Source of the DNA: Chitinophagaceae bacterium
Lineage (GTDB): Bacteria > Bacteroidota > Bacteroidia > Chitinophagales > Chitinophagaceae
DNA length: 35,935 nt
Direction: 5' to 3'
Assembly (NCBI GenBank): GCA_947447265.1
Contig: CANFKC010000046.1
Location: forward strand, 1-35,935
Part shown: positions 1-20,340 of the stretch, piece by piece
Layout of the letters: each line of letters opens with the position of its first letter
Numbering within the stretch: position 1 is the first letter of the stretch
Translations under genes and position numbers: made by a program
The notes under the pieces: model-generated
Seen by the model: only the letters and a program-made list of their open reading frames with translations
What the model was told of the DNA's origin: nothing
The model's database searches: none

Positions 1-933
1 CCCCAATACATAGGGACTATCCTTCTTTCCAACTTTATCAAGTAATACCTGAAGCCTAGGAATGATAGGAATTCTTATAGGACGTGGATTAGCTCTTGAT
101 GTGAGTTTGGTTTTTTCTCGAGTAATAACGAAACAATTATCAATCCTATCATCCCAACGAAGTAAAATAAGATCCTTCCAGTTGATGCCATTGCAATAAA
201 ATAGAATCAACCAAAGATCCCTTGCTGTTTCTTCTGCTCTACTTTTGAATTCAGTGAGATTGGCTATGGTCTCAATCTCGTTTCTTTGTAACGCTCGTTT
301 AACTCTGCGTTTTATTGGTATTGTAAATAGATGCTTTGAAAAAGGGTACTGGTAATCCTTCGGTACTTGTCCAGTTTGTATAGCATAGTTGATAATAGTT
401 CTCAGACATCTTAAGTAAAAACCAAGAGTACCAGTAAGTTCACCGCCATTTCTTTTCAACATCCATTGTTCATAATCGTTTAAAAATTCAGGAGTAATAT
501 CAGTTAGCATTATTGGCTTACTGAATGCTAAGAAACTATGCAGTGCCACCTTATAAGAGTCAGAGGTACTTATTCGTCCAATAGCTTTCTTTTTTGCAAT
601 GTATTCATTAAACATATCCTCTACGAATAAGGTCTTTTGTCTTTTTTCTACCTCATCTCGCTTCAAAAGTTCTTTAAACCGGTTATAGTCAAATGGATAC
701 AACAATTCATTTACCATTAACGCTTTTGTAAGTATCTCATTTGCCTTATTCCGTATTTCCATAAGCTTGCCAGTAGGAGTTTGATTGAAAATCAAATCAA
801 ACTCCCTTTGGCTGTAGTCAGCTTTTAGATACATAAATCGAACACTCTTATCAAAAGTGGTTCGTAGGCTCAATGGATATTTACCATTTTTCTTGGCTAC
901 CCTTGTATCTAAACAAATTATGAACTTCGGCAT
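1..933 (-). CDS. Tyrosine recombinase (integrase), C-terminus cut by window edge
   Basis: The minus strand is open from an ATG at 933 to the window edge, giving 311 residues with no stop. Residues about 1-95 form an arm-like N-terminal region, about 103-190 look like a SAM-like core-binding domain, and about 215 onward is the start of the catalytic domain. The box-I region reads FYCNGINWKDLILLRW (245-260), where the classical GLR arginine position holds Asn251. A TREKTK segment (271-276) fits the beta-hairpin carrying the catalytic lysine. The later H-x-x-R and tyrosine motifs lie outside the window. The excisionase-like gene ends 3 bases upstream, so the two are probably one transcript. By family it would catalyse site-specific integration and excision of the element ending at the tRNA fragment at 4133. 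Confidence 0.88.
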   Translation of the reverse strand, partial: MPKFIICLDTRVAKKNGKYPLSLRTTFDKSVRFMYLKADYSQREFDLIFNQTPTGKLMEIRNKANEILTKALMVNELLYPFDYNRFKELLKRDEVEKRQKTLFVEDMFNEYIAKKKAIGRISTSDSYKVALHSFLAFSKPIMLTDITPEFLNDYEQWMLKRNGGELTGTLGFYLRCLRTIINYAIQTGQVPKDYQYPFSKHLFTIPIKRRVKRALQRNEIETIANLTEFKSRAEETARDLWLILFYCNGINWKDLILLRWDDRIDNCFVITREKTKLTSRANPRPIRIPIIPRLQVLLDKVGKKDSPYVLG

Positions 934-936
934 GTA

Positions 937-1158
937 CTATCTGATAGTTGGAAGGGTTAGAAAATCAAACTCATTTATGTTCTGTGGTATAACAGTATTG
1001 CCACAAACAAATTGAGCTAGTTCTTCTTTATTGAAGATGGTTTTATTTCCGATCTTATAGAAGGGGATCTCTCTCTTCATAACCATCTTGTATAGTGTTG
1101 ATTTGGCTACACGTAGGAAGCTCGCAGCTTCATTCATTTCAAGGAATACAATATTCAT
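937..1158 (-). CDS. Excisionase-like helix-turn-helix DNA-binding protein
   Basis: This 73-residue protein has the HTH_17 (MerR/excisionase-like) pattern. EAASFLRVAKSTLYKMV (residues about 10-26) forms the helix-turn-helix, and REIPFYKIGNKTIFNKEEL follows as the wing. Such proteins bind DNA near recombination sites or act as small transcription factors. It lies 3 bases upstream of the integrase start on the same strand, which is the usual xis-int arrangement and supports a role as recombination directionality factor. The acidic/hydrophobic tail after residue 50 is unassigned. The family call is good. The excisionase role is inferred from position only. Confidence 0.8.
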   Translation of the reverse strand: MNIVFLEMNEAASFLRVAKSTLYKMVMKREIPFYKIGNKTIFNKEELAQFVCGNTVIPQNINEFDFLTLPTIR

Positions 1159-1264
1159 TGTAAATAATTTTAAGATTGTTACGGCTAATGTCGAGCCTTT
1201 TAAATGATTTGCCGCATTGCTATTTGCTATAGAAGTTGCGGATAATGAAATGATTTATAACTCC

Positions 1265-1642
1265 CTAGAGAAAGAGGTCAATTTTCTTATCTCGAATTAT
1301 TTGCTCCAAATTGGGAAGGTCATCAAGCAACCTATCAAAATCCCCATTAGAGTTCAAGAAGTCATTTGCACAGTTGTAATCGCAATCAAAATGGAGTCTT
1401 AATAAATCATCTTGGTCAATATCAACAATGCCATACTCTCTTAATAATTCCAGTGTAATCAGCTCTTCAGGATAATTTGAATCATCCGCCATATATGATA
1501 TGGCTTTCTTTATTACAGTTAAATAATCTTCATTGGTCCAAACATAAAATACCTGATAGTATTTTGCTAATTCATTTACGAATGAATCTCGGTCCTCTTG
1601 GCTGAGATTTGAAATGAGATTTGAAATTGCTTCTTGTGTCAT
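1265..1642 (-). CDS. Hypothetical acidic protein in integrative element
   Basis: This 125-residue protein starts with an ATG at 1642 and has no signal peptide or membrane segment. It is rich in Asp, Glu and Leu and looks mostly helical: an N-terminal helix pair (SNLISNLSQEDRDSFVNEL) is followed by a YYQVFYVWTNEDYL segment and an acidic C-terminal half with a CDYNC pair. I do not recognise the family. It begins 28 bases after the Rmf-like gene on the same strand and is 106 bases ahead of the excisionase-like gene, so it probably belongs to the same leftward transcript. Its reading frame is clean and its base composition matches the rest of the element. Confidence 0.6.
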   Translation of the reverse strand: MTQEAISNLISNLSQEDRDSFVNELAKYYQVFYVWTNEDYLTVIKKAISYMADDSNYPEELITLELLREYGIVDIDQDDLLRLHFDCDYNCANDFLNSNGDFDRLLDDLPNLEQIIRDKKIDLFL

Positions 1643-1670
1643 GTTCTTAGTTTTGTTTAATCTTAAATTC

Positions 1671-1865
1671 CTACCACATTTCGTATGAGGTAGCTAAGGC
1701 ATTACTATACCCTTCATCCCAATCGATGGATTCGCTAGTTCCTATAGGGAATGGGTTGTCTATTATGTCTAATCCTTCTAAAAAAGCTAATTCTCCTTGA
1801 TCGTAAGCGGTCATAACTTTTACGTTTAGTCGTTTTAAAAAAGATTCAATGTTAGATAAGGTCAA
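1671..1865 (-). CDS. Small Rmf/CrpP-like protein (TTG start)
   Basis: The protein has 64 residues. No ATG is available: the frame opens at TTG (1863-1865) and is closed upstream by a stop at 1896-1898. The core reads AYDQGELAFLEGL, then DNPFPIGT, then WDEGY. This matches the spacing of ribosome modulation factor and phage/CrpP-type relatives (A-x-x-x-G-x-x-A-F-x-x-G, N/C-P-[FY]-P, W-x-x-G-[WY]). Rmf binds 70S ribosomes and drives dimerisation; the mobile-element relatives are mostly uncharacterised. The similarity is motif-level only. It follows a structured inverted-repeat region at 1871-1938, which may act as its leader. The alternative is a non-functional remnant lacking its original start. 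Confidence 0.5.
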   Translation of the reverse strand: MTLSNIESFLKRLNVKVMTAYDQGELAFLEGLDIIDNPFPIGTSESIDWDEGYSNALATSYEMW

Positions 1866-1940
1866 TAAAAAGCCAGTGCAGGGCTGAAACCTGCATTACT
1901 ACCTGTGTGGGAGTAGTCTTTTTTTAAACGAACTGGCTGA
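1864..1940. other. Three-way-junction inverted-repeat structure (possible structured RNA or terminator)
   Basis: Three nested stems can be read directly. The outer stem AGCCAGT/ACTGGCT pairs 1871-1877 with 1932-1938. It encloses hairpin GCAGG/CCTGC (1878-1882 with 1890-1894, 7-base loop) and hairpin ACTAC/GTAGT (1898-1902 with 1913-1917, 10-base loop). On the minus strand the outer stem is followed by a short T run, so it could terminate the methyltransferase transcript or act as a leader for the Rmf-like gene. The minus strand also recalls a tRNA T-arm joined directly to a 7-bp acceptor stem, but no D-arm exists. No known riboswitch signature was recognised. Confidence 0.4.
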
Positions 1941-1945
1941 TATTA

Positions 1946-2182
1946 TTAGGCTGCTTCGGCTATTTCATCTCCATCCATCTCTAGGAGAGTTGTGTTTAAG
2001 TCAGCAATGCTCAGACGAGCAAATTCTGGATTGATCTCATAACCAATGTACTTTCTGCCGAAAAGTAAGGCTACTTTACCTACGGTCCCTGAACCAGAGA
2101 AAGGATCTAAAACAGTATCACCTTCTTTCGATGCACTAAGAATCGGAAGAACAGGTAAATACTCTGTCATAAGTGCCGGATG
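1946..2182 (-). pseudogene. DNA methyltransferase, C-terminal remnant
   Basis: The readable protein carries HPALMTEYLPVLPI followed by DTVLDPFSGSGTVGKVALLFGRKYIGYEI. These are the C-terminal region and SAM-binding motif I (DPFSGSGT) of a beta-type N6-adenine/N4-cytosine DNA methyltransferase. In that class the catalytic DPPY motif precedes motif I. Here the frame stays open upstream only to a stop at 2315-2317 and contains no DPPY motif and no convincing start; the first ATG (2170) lies inside the conserved part. The N-terminal two thirds are therefore missing, and the fragment cannot be catalytically complete. It abuts another truncated gene on the opposite strand, which suggests a rearrangement joint. 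A short expressed protein from 2170 remains possible. Confidence 0.72.
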
Positions 2183-2336
2183 GTCAATTTCGGGTTTCAG
2201 GCCCTGAAGACTCTTTTGCCTTGTTGATGCATTTGGCCCTTTAATTACATACGCATATACTTTTGAAATAGTTTTTTTTATAGGAGATGGAATTGAGGAT
2301 ATTAAATTTTCAAATTACTCCATCACACTTAAAGCT

Positions 2337-3362
2337 GTGGGAGAAAATGATACGAAAGCCTATATTTCAGCAATAAAAAATATAAATGTTTCTGACCCCA
2401 AATATGTTGCATTTATTAATGAAGCAAAAGGTAAGATAATTGAATATTATAATAATAAATGCAATAAAAAAATAGAAGATGCTCGAAATTTAAAGAGTAG
2501 AAATCTTTTTGACGAAGGAATTTATTCATTAGTTGATGTTCCACAAGTATGTGATAATTGTTACCTAAAGTGCAATGATATGATTTTGGAAATTTATAAG
2601 GCAAAAATGGACCATAATTGTCAGGAGGTTATACAAAATTCTACTGTTCTTCTAAGCCAAAATAAATATGAAGAAGCATCTTCTGCGCTAATTGGTATTA
2701 CACCAGATCTTCAATGTTATAGTGATGCTAAGGGTTTACTTAGAAGTATTGGTAATAAACGTTGTCAGGAGAATTTACAAAATGCAAAAACGTTGATTAG
2801 TCAAGATAAATACGATGAAGCGGCTAATTATTTATCAAATATCACACCTGATTTACAATGTTATAATGATGCATCGAAAGTTCTGAAGAGTATTACTGAT
2901 CATAAATGCTCAGTTGCATTAGCCCAAGCAAAAGCTTCCTGGGCAAATAAAGATCTAACAACTACAACAAATAATTTGTCTCAAATACCTGCAGATGCAA
3001 CTTGTTATCCGGAAGCACAATTATTGGTCTCTCAAATTACCATTTATATAAAAGAAAAAGAAAATAGAGAATGGAATTTCAAGTTACAACAACATAAGGA
3101 TGCGACAGAGTTAGCAAAGCAAAATATAGAACTGGAAAAACAACGATCTAAAGAGTCATCAGAACTAGCCAAGCAACAACAAGCCGATGCTACAGCATTA
3201 GCTAAGCAGCAACAAGCTGAAGCATCCTCATTTGCTAAGCAACAACAAAAAGACAATACTGAGCTTCAAAAATTAAGTGTTCAAGCGGCAAGAGAAGTAG
3301 GTGTTGCATACGCCAAAAATCAGCCCCAGATAGTTTATAATACAAATGTGAACAAGTGGTAA
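2337..3362 (+). CDS. Repeat and coiled-coil protein, probably 5'-truncated
   Basis: The nominal start is GTG at 2337, giving 341 residues. The same frame is open back to 2208 without any ATG, and the stretch FEIVFFIGDGIEDIKFSNYS just upstream looks like real coding, so the 5' end has probably been lost at a rearrangement. From about residue 90 there are three degenerate repeats of about 42 residues sharing Y-x-E-A...I-T-P-D-x-x-C-Y-x-D-A, resembling TPR-like helical hairpins with recurring cysteines. From about residue 240 the protein becomes a Gln/Ala/Lys coiled coil with tandem ELAKQQQADA units. No signal peptide is visible in what remains. Function unknown. A possible secreted protein gene follows 37 bases downstream. 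Confidence 0.6.
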   Translation: MGENDTKAYISAIKNINVSDPKYVAFINEAKGKIIEYYNNKCNKKIEDARNLKSRNLFDEGIYSLVDVPQVCDNCYLKCNDMILEIYKAKMDHNCQEVIQNSTVLLSQNKYEEASSALIGITPDLQCYSDAKGLLRSIGNKRCQENLQNAKTLISQDKYDEAANYLSNITPDLQCYNDASKVLKSITDHKCSVALAQAKASWANKDLTTTTNNLSQIPADATCYPEAQLLVSQITIYIKEKENREWNFKLQQHKDATELAKQNIELEKQRSKESSELAKQQQADATALAKQQQAEASSFAKQQQKDNTELQKLSVQAAREVGVAYAKNQPQIVYNTNVNKW

Positions 3363-3399
3363 GTTTAGAAAATTTTCAACTCAATTTTAAAATACTAAC

Positions 3400-3846
3400 A
3401 TGACAAATCAAATCAAAATCAAAAACCAATGGCTTACAGCTGTTCGTTATTTCAAATATTTTGTTACCATTCTATGTTTTATATTGGCATTTAGTAGCAA
3501 TTCATTTGCCCAAGATAATTTCAGTTTGGTTGAATTAAAGGGTACATACAGACTTACAATACCTTTGACTGGAAAGCAAGGAGACAAATTCACAGTAAAA
3601 TATGACATCAAGACGAAAGTTGCCACTGCGTTCATATCTGATAAAGTTCTCTTCACTATTAAAAAAGAAACATGGGGGCCAAGCTCTGACGATCCCAAAT
3701 ATAATACACTAAGATTTACATCATTAGGAGACTCTTACAAGGTATTCGATGGTGAGTCACTTGCGGTTAGGAAAACAGGAAGCGGGTATGAACTTTATTC
3801 TCCCGATGAATCTAAAACATATTACATTATGGAAAGTGTAAAATGA
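3400..3846 (+). CDS. Small secreted protein of unknown function
   Basis: The protein has 148 residues. Residues about 1-38 form a long signal peptide with a hydrophobic core (YFVTILCFILAFSS) and a likely cleavage after NSFAQ. The mature part is about 110 residues of alternating polar and hydrophobic segments (LKGTYRLTIPLTG, KFTVKYDIKTK, RFTSLGDSYKV, YELYSPDESKTYYIM), which suggests a small beta-sandwich or lipocalin-like fold. I recognise no family. It follows the repeat protein by 37 bases on the same strand and may be co-transcribed. It is the last gene before the attachment site at 4133, so it is element cargo. Confidence 0.62.
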   Translation: MTNQIKIKNQWLTAVRYFKYFVTILCFILAFSSNSFAQDNFSLVELKGTYRLTIPLTGKQGDKFTVKYDIKTKVATAFISDKVLFTIKKETWGPSSDDPKYNTLRFTSLGDSYKVFDGESLAVRKTGSGYELYSPDESKTYYIMESVK

Positions 3847-4132
3847 TAAATCATATTTTGGGAAGCAAGGTTGGTAAAAAAATAGAATTAAATAAAACGC
3901 CATATTATATCATAGTTATAATAAGTCAGTTATATTCATTCCTATCCGTGTTTATAAAGAAACTAAACTATTCGAGTTCCAACATTTAATTTCGTATTTG
4001 CAAAAAAACTGCAAGAATAATCAGCAAAAGCAGGAAAAAAGGCGACGAAATAAGAAAGCCAGCTATCTATTTATCTATTGATAATCAATAAATAAGAACA
4101 AAAAGGAAAAGCAGAATAACTTAAAAAAACTA
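3847..4132. other. AT-rich non-coding stretch inside the element end
   Basis: About 286 bases of A/T-rich sequence separate the secreted-protein gene from the tRNA fragment. I see no open frame of note, no convincing promoter and no strong hairpin. As the element end next to the attachment core it would be the natural place for integrase arm-binding sites, but no clear direct repeats were found by eye. Confidence 0.5.
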
Positions 4133-4176
4133 CTCATAATCAGGTGGTCCTAGGTTCAAGTCCTAGTGGGACCACA
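4133..4176 (+). other. tRNA 3'-end fragment (CAT anticodon), probable attR of the integrative element
   Basis: The sequence reads as anticodon loop CTCATAA (4133-4139), anticodon-stem 3' strand TCAGG (4140-4144), five-base variable loop TGGTC, T-arm CTAGG-TTCAAGT-CCTAG (4150-4166), acceptor 3' strand TGGGACC (4167-4173) and discriminator A4174. The 5' half is missing. Just upstream the bases read aacta, where CCTGA would be needed to close the anticodon stem, and no D-arm or acceptor 5' strand is present. This is how an attachment site looks when an element integrates with crossover in the anticodon loop. The orientation places the element to the left and native chromosome, with the tRNA terminator, to the right. 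The gene would be a CAT-anticodon tRNA (Met, or Ile2 if the C is modified). Confidence 0.82.
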
Positions 4177-4177
4177 T

Positions 4178-4213
4178 AAAAAAAGCAGTTACCATATGGT
4201 AGCTGCTTTTTTA
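4178..4213 (+). terminator. Intrinsic terminator downstream of the tRNA 3' end
   Basis: A long inverted repeat has arms AAAAAGCAG and CTGCTTTTT around TACCATATGGTA, with one G-U pair, and ends in a T run. It starts three bases after the tRNA discriminator. It is therefore likely the native terminator of the tRNA gene, retained on the chromosomal side of the junction. It is A-flanked on the left, so it may also serve the leftward SGNH gene ending at 4231. Confidence 0.75.
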
Positions 4214-4230: not shown

Positions 4231-5103
4231 TTAATTAGTGGGAGTATTCTCGGATGCTGGTTTTACGTTGATAATGGTTGGCGAGTTATCAAATTTGAGG
4301 TGGGTCACTATTTCCGTGGTTAGTTGCTGGGCACCTCTTGCATTAAAGTGGGTCAGGTCGTAAAATATATTCCCTTGTGCTTTAATGATGATACTGTCTT
4401 TGTTTTTAAACAGACCGCCTATGTGTGCGTCAAACGCCAGCAGATCGTTGTAAAAGGGCGATTTTTGTTCAATTTCGTTCAGTAAGGGATACTTCGGAAA
4501 CGTAAGCGCTATGATCTTACATTTCTTCTTTAGCAACATATTAATGCCCTCCAGGTAAAGGTTTTCCTTGTCGCTAAAGTAAGAAGGCCTTTCTGCATAA
4601 ACGGTCTGAAAAAGTGACAAAGGTTGCGCAAGGCAAATAGTATCGGCAACCGGGAAAAGATTGTTTTTGCTATCGAATATTTTATGCGGCACTACATTAT
4701 TTTTCATGACCTCCACTAACTCTGTAATGGAGTAATTATTTTTCTTTAGCTGTGCCAATGCATCAAAATTGACGGCTGAATAGTTTCTGTCCACCGTCTT
4801 TCGCCTCAGCACAACTGTGTGCGAAATTTGAATTACTACGTTTGAATTTTCCGGCACAAGGCGGGAGAAAACAACAAAATCGTATATGCCTGCGCCCGAA
4901 AGTGCTGCTGACCTGAATTGATGTGGCGAATTTTTATTCAGGTATTGTAGATCCAGGTCCTGATACATTTGAGAATCGCCCCAAACGTAAACAGTATTTT
5001 TCTCGCGGGGTAGCGTAAAATGAATATACAACCAGTAGAAACTTGCCAAAGTCACTGCTACCAGGAAGCAAAAAGCCGCAATATTGATGAGGAAACGCTT
5101 CAT
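4231..5103 (-). CDS. SGNH/AlgX-like partner of MBOAT acyltransferase (module 1)
   Basis: The protein has 290 residues with one N-terminal membrane anchor (about 7-28), then a periplasmic domain. WGDSQMYQDLD (41-51) provides the GDS nucleophile motif (Ser44), and YDLTHFNARGAQQL near the end (Asp249, His252) provides the D-x-x-H of SGNH hydrolase/acetyltransferase folds such as AlgX, AlgJ and DltD. These proteins work next to MBOAT proteins and move acyl groups onto extracytoplasmic polysaccharide. The gene starts 6 bases after the stop of the MBOAT gene at 5110, so the two are one operon. The substrate cannot be read from sequence. The fold assignment rests on the two catalytic blocks and the neighbour, since the middle of the protein is unfamiliar. 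Confidence 0.72.
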   Translation of the reverse strand: MKRFLINIAAFCFLVAVTLASFYWLYIHFTLPREKNTVYVWGDSQMYQDLDLQYLNKNSPHQFRSAALSGAGIYDFVVFSRLVPENSNVVIQISHTVVLRRKTVDRNYSAVNFDALAQLKKNNYSITELVEVMKNNVVPHKIFDSKNNLFPVADTICLAQPLSLFQTVYAERPSYFSDKENLYLEGINMLLKKKCKIIALTFPKYPLLNEIEQKSPFYNDLLAFDAHIGGLFKNKDSIIIKAQGNIFYDLTHFNARGAQQLTTEIVTHLKFDNSPTIINVKPASENTPTN

Positions 5104-15374: not shown

Positions 15375-18086
15375 ATGCTTACTGCAAACGAAATACGCCG
15401 TCAATACCTGGAATTTTTTCGCTCAAAAGGCCATGAAATAGTACCTTCTGCGCCTATAGTTATAAAAAACGACCCTACATTATTGTTTACCAATGCTGGC
15501 ATGAACCAGTTCAAGGATTTTTTCCTGGGCAATGGTGAACCTTCTAATACCCGTATAGCCGATACTCAAAAGTGCCTGCGTGTTAGCGGTAAGCATAACG
15601 ACCTTGAAGAAGTGGGCGTAGATACTTACCACCATACCATGTTCGAAATGCTGGGTAACTGGAGCTTTGGCGACTACTTTAAAAAAGAAGCCATACAGTG
15701 GAGCTGGGAACTGCTGACAGAAGTTTATGGTATACCGAAAGATAAACTATATGTAACCGTTTTTCAGGGCGATGCTGCTGAAAACCTGGAAAAAGATCAG
15801 GAAGCCTACGATTATTGGAAACAATATATAGCTGAAGACCGCATTTTGATGGGCAATAAGAAGGATAACTTCTGGGAAATGGGCGATACCGGCCCATGTG
15901 GCCCTTGTTCTGAAATACATGTGGACTGCCGCACTGATGAGGAAAAAAGAATGGTTGACGGTGCAACCCTTGTAAATGCCGACCACCCGCAGGTAATAGA
16001 AATATGGAACAATGTGTTCATGCAATATAACCGCGTATGGGATAACAAAGAGGGTTTAACCCAATGGGAACGGGAATATACAGGGGATGACCTGAAGCGC
16101 GACAGGGCAAAAAAAGTAATAGAATTCACAAAGTTAGATCCTTTACCTGCAAAGCATGTGGATACCGGTATGGGCCTGGAGCGCCTGGTACGTGTATTAC
16201 AGGGCAAGCAAAGCAATTACGATACTGATTTATTCACCGGTACCATTGCTGCTATTGAAAAAATAACCGGCAAAACCTATGGCTGCACTGATAGCAAGCC
16301 AGATGTTGCTTTCCGTGTGCTTTCTGACCATATCCGTGCTATCGGCTTTACTATTGCTGACGGGCAGTTGCCATCTAATACCGGTGCCGGCTATGTTATA
16401 CGCCGTATTCTTCGCCGTGCTGTAAGGTATTATTATTCTTACCTCGACTATAAGCAACCATTGCTGCATAGATTAATGCCGGTGCTCGCTAAGCAATTTG
16501 AAAGTGTTTTCTCTGAGCTGCAGCAGCAGATTGACCTGGTGAGCCGCGTAGTGAAAGAAGAAGAAGATGCTTTTTTACGTACGCTGGACAAGGGCCTGAA
16601 GAAAATTGACGACATTATTAATGAAACAAAAAGCCAGAACACCCAAACCATTAATGGTAAAGCGGCTTTTGAGTTATACGATACTTATGGCTTCCCTATA
16701 GATCTTACCCGCCTTATCGGCAGCGAAAATGGCTTGCACGTTGATGAGGTAGCCTTCGCCAGCGAAATGCAGCAGCAAAAGTCGCGCAGCCGCGCAGCTA
16801 CTGCGTTAGATACTGATGACTGGGTAGTATTAAAGGAAACTACCCCTACCAATTTTGTAGGCTACGAACATACTGAAGCAGAAGCTACTATACTAAAATA
16901 CCGCAGGGTATCGTCAAAAGGCAAAGAGCTGTTCCAGTTTGTTTTAGATACTACTCCTTTCTATGCTGAAAGCGGCGGACAGGTGGGCGATACCGGCGAA
17001 TTCATTTTCCCGAATGATACCATACAGATTGTTGATACAAAGAAAGAAGACGGCCTTACTATCCACTTTGCCGAAATGCTGCCGGAAAATGTAAGTGCGC
17101 CTGTATTGGCTAAAATAGACGTTGTGAAACGTGCATTTACCACAGTGCACCATAGTGCTACGCACTTATTGCATGCAGCGCTTAGAGACGTATTAGGTAC
17201 ACACGTTGCACAAAAAGGTTCTTTGGTAAATGAAGAGCACCTCCGTTTCGACTTTTCGCACTTTGCAAAAGTGACAGACGAAGAAGTTGCCCGCATTGAA
17301 ACCATAGTTAACCAGAAGATTCGCGAGAATTTTCCGGTGGTAATAAAGACAATGGCTAAAGATGAGGCTATTGCTTTAGGTGCAATGGCTTTATTCGGTG
17401 AAAAATATGGCAATATGGTTCGCGTAGTGGTTATGGACCCTGCTTACTCTATAGAGCTTTGCGGTGGCACACATGTGGGCTATACAGGTCAGCTGGGCTA
17501 TTTTAAAATTACCAGCGAAGGCGCGGTAGCAGCAGGCGTTCGCCGTATGGAAGCTGTAAGCGGCCATGCAGCAGAGCAGTTTATAAACGAGAAATTACAG
17601 CTGATCAGCAACATAGCAACGCAACTTAAAAATGCTAAAGACCCTGTAAAGGCAATTGAGAAGTTACAGGAAGAAAAGAGCTTGCTGGAAAAGCATGTAG
17701 AAACCCTGGAGGCCCGCCAGTTAGTGGGTGTACGCAATGAACTGCTTACCAAGGATGAAATAATAAACCAGATTTCTTTCATCGGGCAGATGGTTTCAGT
17801 TAGTTCGGCCGATAATTTGAAGAAGCTGACGCTCGACCTGAAAAGCCATCTCAACGACCACGTTATTGTACTGTGCGCCAACATTGATGGCAAGCCTTTC
17901 GTAGCTGTAGGCGTTGATGAAAAGGTAAACGCGGCACGCGGACTAGATGCAGGCAAAATAATTAAAGAACACGTAGCCCCACTAATAAAAGGCGGCGGCG
18001 GCGGCCAAAAAACTCTCGCCACTGCCGGCGGCCAGGACAATAGCGGCCTGCAGGCCGTTATCGATAAGGTTAGGGGATTGTTATAG
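15375..18086 (+). CDS. alaS: Alanine--tRNA ligase
   Basis: The full-length protein has 903 residues. The class II catalytic domain opens with RRQYLEFFRSKGHEIVPSAP and contains DPTLLFTNAGMNQFKD, HHTMFEMLGNWSFGDYFKKE and DTGMGLERL (about 260-268). A linker (RRILRRAVRYYY) leads to the editing domain, with metal-ligand motifs HHSATH (592-597) and CGGTH (696-700). A coiled coil and the C-Ala domain follow, ending with the GGGGGQKTLATAGG glycine-rich segment. It charges tRNA-Ala and clears mischarged Ser and Gly. All key residues are in place. The gene is monocistronic: its own -7 box lies upstream and a strong terminator follows at 18109. Confidence 0.98.
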   Translation: MLTANEIRRQYLEFFRSKGHEIVPSAPIVIKNDPTLLFTNAGMNQFKDFFLGNGEPSNTRIADTQKCLRVSGKHNDLEEVGVDTYHHTMFEMLGNWSFGDYFKKEAIQWSWELLTEVYGIPKDKLYVTVFQGDAAENLEKDQEAYDYWKQYIAEDRILMGNKKDNFWEMGDTGPCGPCSEIHVDCRTDEEKRMVDGATLVNADHPQVIEIWNNVFMQYNRVWDNKEGLTQWEREYTGDDLKRDRAKKVIEFTKLDPLPAKHVDTGMGLERLVRVLQGKQSNYDTDLFTGTIAAIEKITGKTYGCTDSKPDVAFRVLSDHIRAIGFTIADGQLPSNTGAGYVIRRILRRAVRYYYSYLDYKQPLLHRLMPVLAKQFESVFSELQQQIDLVSRVVKEEEDAFLRTLDKGLKKIDDIINETKSQNTQTINGKAAFELYDTYGFPIDLTRLIGSENGLHVDEVAFASEMQQQKSRSRAATALDTDDWVVLKETTPTNFVGYEHTEAEATILKYRRVSSKGKELFQFVLDTTPFYAESGGQVGDTGEFIFPNDTIQIVDTKKEDGLTIHFAEMLPENVSAPVLAKIDVVKRAFTTVHHSATHLLHAALRDVLGTHVAQKGSLVNEEHLRFDFSHFAKVTDEEVARIETIVNQKIRENFPVVIKTMAKDEAIALGAMALFGEKYGNMVRVVVMDPAYSIELCGGTHVGYTGQLGYFKITSEGAVAAGVRRMEAVSGHAAEQFINEKLQLISNIATQLKNAKDPVKAIEKLQEEKSLLEKHVETLEARQLVGVRNELLTKDEIINQISFIGQMVSVSSADNLKKLTLDLKSHLNDHVIVLCANIDGKPFVAVGVDEKVNAARGLDAGKIIKEHVAPLIKGGGGGQKTLATAGGQDNSGLQAVIDKVRGLL

Positions 18087-20262: not shown

Positions 20263-20340
20263 GGAGGCTGTAGCTCAGTTGGTTAGAGCATCAGATTGTG
20301 GTTCTGAGGGTCGAGGGTTCGAGACCCTTCAGCCTCCCCA
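20263..20340 (+). tRNA. tRNA-His (GTG)
   Basis: The acceptor stem is GAGGCTG (20264-20270) paired with CAGCCTC (20330-20336). The anticodon arm is TCAGA-TTGTGGT-TCTGA with anticodon GTG, and the T-arm is GAGGG-TTCGAGA-CCCTT. The histidine-specific extra G(-1) at 20263 pairs with C73 at 20337, and CCA is encoded at 20338-20340. All cloverleaf arms are present. Confidence 0.97.

Follow-up and report, generated by a model that had tools for sequence, protein, structure and literature searches.

The window, 35,935 bases long, comprised the entire contig C46 of a 5.06 Mb Chitinophagaceae genome in 98 contigs, and its position 1 is therefore an assembly break. Near its left end stood the 3' half of a CAT tRNA, preceded by an integrase gene, an excisionase gene and a short stretch of cargo (Table 1). 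Because the contig begins within the integrase gene, both junctions of the element described below adjoin assembly breaks. G+C was 0.34 over positions 1-4131 and 0.425 in the rest of the window.

Table 1. Features of the left part of the window and of the cassettes bounded by half-tRNAs in related genomes.
Feature	Position in the window, or length	Strand	Basis or content
Tyrosine integrase, first 311 aa, truncated at the contig start	1..933	-	Arm-DNA-bind_5, Phage_int_SAM_5; phrog_1 integrase
Excisionase-like HTH protein	937..1158	-	HTH_17; TIGR01764 44.3 bits (cut-off 28.8)
125-aa ORF, no family match	1265..1642	-	Pfam (E 0.01), PADLOC, PHROGs, NCBIfam (E 0.001)
64-aa ORF, no family match	1671..1865	-	Same profile searches (Pfam, PADLOC, PHROGs, NCBIfam)
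N6/N4 DNA methyltransferase C-terminal fragment, probably a remnant	1946..2170	-	PF01555 profile positions 174-219 of 221
Cargo ORF with repeats, apparently lacking its 5' end	2280..3362	+	ARM_TT21 7e-7
148-aa cargo protein, signal-peptide-like start (by eye), no family match	3400..3846	+	Pfam, PADLOC, PHROGs, NCBIfam
Conserved right end, non-coding, presumed integrase/excisionase binding region	3999..4131	+	Recurrence in G005 and G137
Near-palindrome TTATCTATTGATAATCAATAAATAA within the right end	4071..4095	.	Inverted-repeat search against shuffles
Displaced 3' part of CAT tRNA, attR, 45 nt (very probable reading)	4132..4176	+	Identical to C62:150-106; ARAGORN intact copy
CTCATAA anticodon loop, presumed 7-bp crossover (overlap) region	4133..4139	+	Identity starts one base before
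Terminator-like hairpin 3' of the displaced half, probably the former terminator of the tRNA	4179..4212	+	Fold -20.5 kcal/mol, z -7.4
G004 cassette 1	1,863 bp core to core		DarT (2.9e-48) and macro-domain DarG (PADLOC 3.2e-117)
G004 cassette 2	2.75 kb		DUF6714-like protein (below cut-off), beta-flower protein, further ORFs
G005 cassette 1	about 2.96 kb		Histidine kinase and PAS protein
G005 cassette 2	about 2.03 kb		Glycosyltransferase 2 and unknown protein
G010 cassette	1.45 kb		DUF6714-like and beta-flower pair, as in G004

The half-tRNA and the genes beside it

The intact counterpart of the half-tRNA was found on another contig of the same genome (G000). ARAGORN called an intact CAT tRNA at C62:107-181(-), 106 bases from the contig end, and no tRNA at the window 4132 site; the sole tRNA that it called in the window was a tRNA-His at 20264-20340. 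Window positions 4132-4176 and C62:150-106 were identical at 45/45 nt, while identity outside this block fell to 21% over 100 nt on the 5' side (ungapped) and 38% over 60 nt on the 3' side. The BLAST E value of the second copy in the 98 contigs of the genome was 7.8e-20, which excludes a chance match, and no further copy beyond C62 was found at E <= 0.001 in this assembly, rated 98.8% complete. The earlier note, made from the letters of the window, had the tRNA homology begin at 4133 with unrelated sequence before it, and had predicted an intact CAT tRNA with the same 3' bases. The start was right within one base (identity begins at 4132, and CTCATAA is the anticodon loop), the low identity of the 5' flank agreed with the second statement, and the tRNA on C62 was the one that had been foreseen. 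The C62 tRNA has the pairs C4-G69 and C5-G68, which we take to be marks of a lysidine-containing tRNA-Ile, and it may accordingly be a tRNA-Ile instead of a tRNA-Met.

Profile matches also identified the int and xis genes that had been placed to the left of the half-tRNA. The integrase reads leftwards and was open across all 311 visible codons. Six related integrases had open frames of 378-436 codons, and alignment to the best two relatives indicated that about 110 C-terminal residues are missing, which would probably hold most of the catalytic residues. A PF00589 search of the genome's own assembly did not find this C-terminus: of the seven matches, six belonged to open frames with 304-433 codons, and the seventh, at C52:674-814, was short (84 codons) and was set aside as a fragment in unrelated surroundings. 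The window integrase matched 15 phage and 14 plasmid records, every one at less than 60% identity; viral contigs contained no relatives of it. The first 149 bases of the window were identical to those of contig G005:C44 (L061), which begins at the same base and continues into an IS21-type element (IstB 2e-65). From this it seems that the assembly is shared and that the population also contains a copy of this integrase interrupted by an IS.

The open frame of the repeat-containing cargo ORF ran on upstream of its listed start at 2337. The methyltransferase fragment meets this apparently truncated ORF at 2207-2280, perhaps at an old deletion or recombination joint inside the element. Two truncated genes thus meet there, and the visible part of the element, 4 kb, may be a composite.

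Conserved right end and terminator-like hairpins

The block of 95-130 bp adjoining the half-tRNA recurred in other genomes. In G005:C49 it stood beside both displaced tRNA halves, at 85% identity over 120 bp and 80% over 96 bp, despite cargo that differed from that of the window element. It also occurred in G137, which belongs to another genus of the family (76% over 110 bp, E 9.2e-17). There the block came after a HigB/HTH pair and ended 24 bp short of the expected core; beyond it lay other DNA with an ORF resembling a transposase (by eye), and the 3.1 kb read contained no tRNA half.

The G137 copy was the only clear match in the DNA search of 195 genomes. Altogether 66 of these had a match at E <= 0.01, and nearly all were treated as chance because they were short and AT-rich. 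A match in G189 (4.1e-6, 43 nt) was inspected and set aside, and others included G197 (5e-5) and G121 (1e-4). A model of the right end, R1, matched four of 148 genomes at E <= 0.001. It was built from the known copies, so that G000 and G005 matched by construction, and the matches at G010:C105 and G036:C27 were weak; no strong new genome appeared among the 148. The right-end pattern had no matches in viral contigs.

Within the block, the near-palindrome at 4071-4095 was equalled in 0 of 40 base-composition shuffles at length 14, in 1 of 40 at length 18 and in 7 of 40 at length 11, and it was partly kept in four aligned copies. Direct repeats that might serve as arm sites did not exceed the shuffles in the right end (11, 34 and 17 of 40 as good). 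The block is probably the region bound by int and xis. Through this block, the int-bearing element of the window has one end in common with two G005 cassettes that lack an integrase, and an end shared in this way would suggest mobilisation in trans.

Two hairpins were folded, the one at window 4179-4212 and one on C62, where the 106 bases beyond the tRNA start with a different terminator-like hairpin (-20.7 kcal/mol, z -5.6). The C62 hairpin region was 77% identical over 53 bp to sequence 3' of a half-tRNA in G004:C4, and in G004:C4 an integrase gene begins just inside that left end. Owing to this likeness to an integrase-bearing left end, the C62 side looks element-borne. In G004, G005 and G010 the outermost half was likewise followed by the window hairpin type (GCAGTTAC...GTAGCTGC), a position that points to the older chromosomal side. 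The same type was also present after the half in G010:C123 and, in G004 and G005, directly after the first intact tRNA, and is therefore not by itself a marker of the native side; a similar hairpin was seen by eye at three of 24 tRNA loci of other genomes. The native terminator of the earlier note is thus plausible at 4179-4212 but not unique to that position.

In total, 15 left ends formed four groups: the GCAGTTAC type (seven), the GAGTTGTAC type (four), the GGGTTTCAG type (two) and the C62 type (two). Both GGGTTTCAG-type ends were in G005 and were 87% identical over 98 bp. The tRNA 3' half and its terminator appear to be carried by elements as one unit.

The intact tRNA lies near the end of C62 and int at the start of C46, in compatible orientations. 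Neither a sequence joining C62 to C46 nor a contig spanning the element was found. C62 and the window are likely the two ends of one element, a conclusion less sure than the identification of the half-tRNA as an attachment site.

Half-tRNA arrays at the CAT tRNA in related genomes

Three genomes of the genus had more than one tRNA copy at this locus. G004:C15 and G005:C49 contained an intact CAT tRNA followed by two more 3' halves in the same orientation, and G010:C310 an intact CAT tRNA followed by one further half, with spacings of 1.4-3.0 kb across the three. A lolD-like ABC gene stood 5' of the tRNA in G000 (on C62), G004, G005, G006 and G010. The cassettes beside this shared gene differed among G004, G005 and G010 (Table 1). 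Of ten half-tRNA copies in the relatives, four matched from CTCATAA or one base before it, and four matched from 4-7 bases before it, all of these at or beyond the second site described below. Two of the ten were degenerate in the core; copy c of G005:C49 and copy c of G004:C15 were among the degenerate halves.

None of the five bounded cassettes had a PF00589 match, in a search that found 21 places across G004, G005, G010 and G137 (the G010 assembly being 74% complete). Bounded segments in tandem that lacked an integrase were thus present in G004, G005 and G010. At the second site, in G004:C4, three halves bounded two segments of about 7.9 and 9.1 kb, the first with an integrase and the second with no PF00589 match. 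Overall, six of seven bounded segments had no such match.

The second place with a half CAT tRNA was seen in G005:C66 (L055, 4721-4983), G010:C123 (L051, 4348-4605) and G004:C4 (L049, 177-365). The half was located about 150 bp 3' of a tRNA-Glu, of which G004 has the 3' end only, with CACCTG before it, and resembles an old site of secondary integration. G006:C175 contained part of the same flank and then unrelated DNA. In the window's own genome, a tRNA 3'-like stretch (GGTTCGAACCC...CGCTACA) occurred about 80-110 bases 3' of a tRNA-Glu (G000:C71, L117). A tighter array was observed in G054 (C19:36579-36882), where two tRNA-like 3' pieces with 126-bp spacing followed an intact CAT tRNA.

The cassette encoding DarT and DarG provided a filled and an empty site. 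When the 1,863-bp DarTG segment was left out, the G004 leader joined to the second tRNA copy aligned with the tRNA and first cassette of G010 at 253/290 identical positions and with no gap. The boundaries of the segment were the two CTCATAA cores, and the core itself supplies the end of darG (L047 7626-8675), its final codon and its stop (TCA TAA). This shows an exact presence/absence of an integrase-less cassette, leaving aside the direction of the change and any former integrase.

For the window element, no empty site was found in the genus genomes. The right-flank protein (4231-5103) matched one of 11 genus genomes, namely the window's own, and its named relatives were six loci at 27-46% identity. 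In G004 the alaS gene (window 15375-18086) and the tRNA were on separate contigs; in G016 they lay about 236 kb apart. Synteny of the window's right flank with the tRNA locus of the relatives was not demonstrable from either gene.

Two accounts of the integrase-less cassettes were weighed. In the first, which we judge the somewhat more probable one, they are decayed islands (CIMEs) that entered with their own integrase and later lost it by deletion, with no mobilisation in trans. Such a history is the published scenario for tandem islands as given in the available part of one account (PMC5704250), and it agrees with the degenerate halves and with the integrase retained by one of the two G004:C4 segments. 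The five cassettes at the intact tRNA speak against it in that the PF00589 search detected no remnant in them, as do cargo genes that look whole in the matched families and the exact boundary between G004 and G010.

The second account, offered tentatively as an unlikely one, is that the CAT tRNA of the genus is a cassette-collecting site. Integrase-less cassettes of 1.4-3.0 kb would be inserted and removed in trans by the integrase of an int and xis element, and each would supply its own tRNA 3' half with a terminator, keeping the tRNA functional. Its cargo would include DarTG, a histidine kinase with a PAS protein, and a glycosyltransferase, and two of the cassettes share their end with the int and xis element. 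Integrase loss after entry is the more ordinary account.

Reading of the locus and known systems

We consider it very probable that window 4132-4176 is the attR of a small integrative element in a CAT tRNA, formed when a tyrosine integrase recombined the element into the anticodon loop. The reading is based on the displaced half, its intact partner, the int and xis families, the low G+C, the recurring right end, the element-like C62 side and the hairpin type at the outermost halves. The displaced half, the intact partner and int with xis equally bear out the right attachment site proposed in the earlier note. The earlier note described one element; in the relatives, several small elements have accreted at the same locus.

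The following course of events is proposed, with the chemistry of the crossover and the function of the conserved end as its inferred parts. The integrase would recombine attP with the anticodon loop of the CAT tRNA. With a tRNA 3' half and a terminator supplied by the element, the host tRNA would be rebuilt at attL (C62) from the host 5' half and the element's 3' half, and the old 3' half would be displaced to the far, right end. In the integrated element int and xis would lie toward attL and cargo toward attR. Later elements would enter at the intact tRNA, pushing earlier ones outward.

Alternatively, the window half may be the outermost boundary of an array, with further cassettes between C62 and the window and with the attL on C62 belonging to another element. 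The two or three tRNA copies arrayed at this locus in G004, G005 and G010 favour such an arrangement, as do the truncated genes that meet near 2207-2280. The genome's 98 contigs (98.8% complete) contained no third half-tRNA copy, though assemblies of this kind lose repeats. We regard this alternative as possible but doubtful. That the half-tRNA is a tRNA pseudogene from a duplication or insertion unrelated to the nearby int is highly improbable: degenerate tRNA copies do occur in the order (G054:C19), but this one begins at the anticodon loop, is identical over all 45 nt, has int and xis alongside, and is preceded by a block that adjoins half-tRNAs in another species.

As an attR, the right end of the window element is ordinary in itself. 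The wider interest may lie in the locus, where a tRNA anticodon loop gathers small cassettes that include a phage-defence pair. Island finders that require an integrase in each interval would miss such cassettes. If it is true that a common end lets one integrase move foreign cassettes, the locus offers a directly testable route for the spread of defence genes.

An intact tDNA, a displaced 3' fragment and a tyrosine integrase inside, its gene cut at residue 311, were all present here. These features, with the anticodon-loop crossover, are those of the tDNA islands in Islander as the available text describes them. That text reports an anticodon-centred site in 2083 of 3919 islands and states that candidates without an integrase or shorter than 2 kb are discarded (PMC4383910); by this filter, the relatives' cassettes would be left out. 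We noticed no literature on such half-tRNA arrays in this bacterial group.

The arrays of the relatives resemble accretion and CIMEs (ICESt1-type in Streptococcus, and ssrA islands in Dehalococcoides), which are tandem att-bounded segments, some integrase-less, at one RNA gene. The Dehalococcoides ssrA islands are there said to have the integration module in 16 cases and to lack it in 15 (PMC3146451). They are described with a serine recombinase at the tmRNA, whereas the present locus has a CAT tRNA as target, a tyrosine integrase and cassettes 1.4-3.0 kb long. The window element has int and is therefore not itself a CIME.

Additive flexible genomic islands, described in excerpt for Alteromonas and Methylophilaceae, likewise have a tRNA target that collects variable cassettes (PMC4119200), and flexible islands are reported to contain recurring copies of the last 20 bases of a tRNA (PMC10872708, in the portion available). 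Unlike the present case, these excerpts mention no end block common to integrase-bearing and integrase-less cassettes. Tycheposons, according to the same portion of the latter source, are tRNA-bounded elements of 4-200 kb with a tyrosine recombinase, found beside tRNA-Met(CAT) in Methylophilaceae (PMC10872708); the window element is likened to them by this description. Overall, the window's right end and its locus fit known kinds, namely anticodon-loop tDNA islands, accretion with CIMEs, and additive islands.
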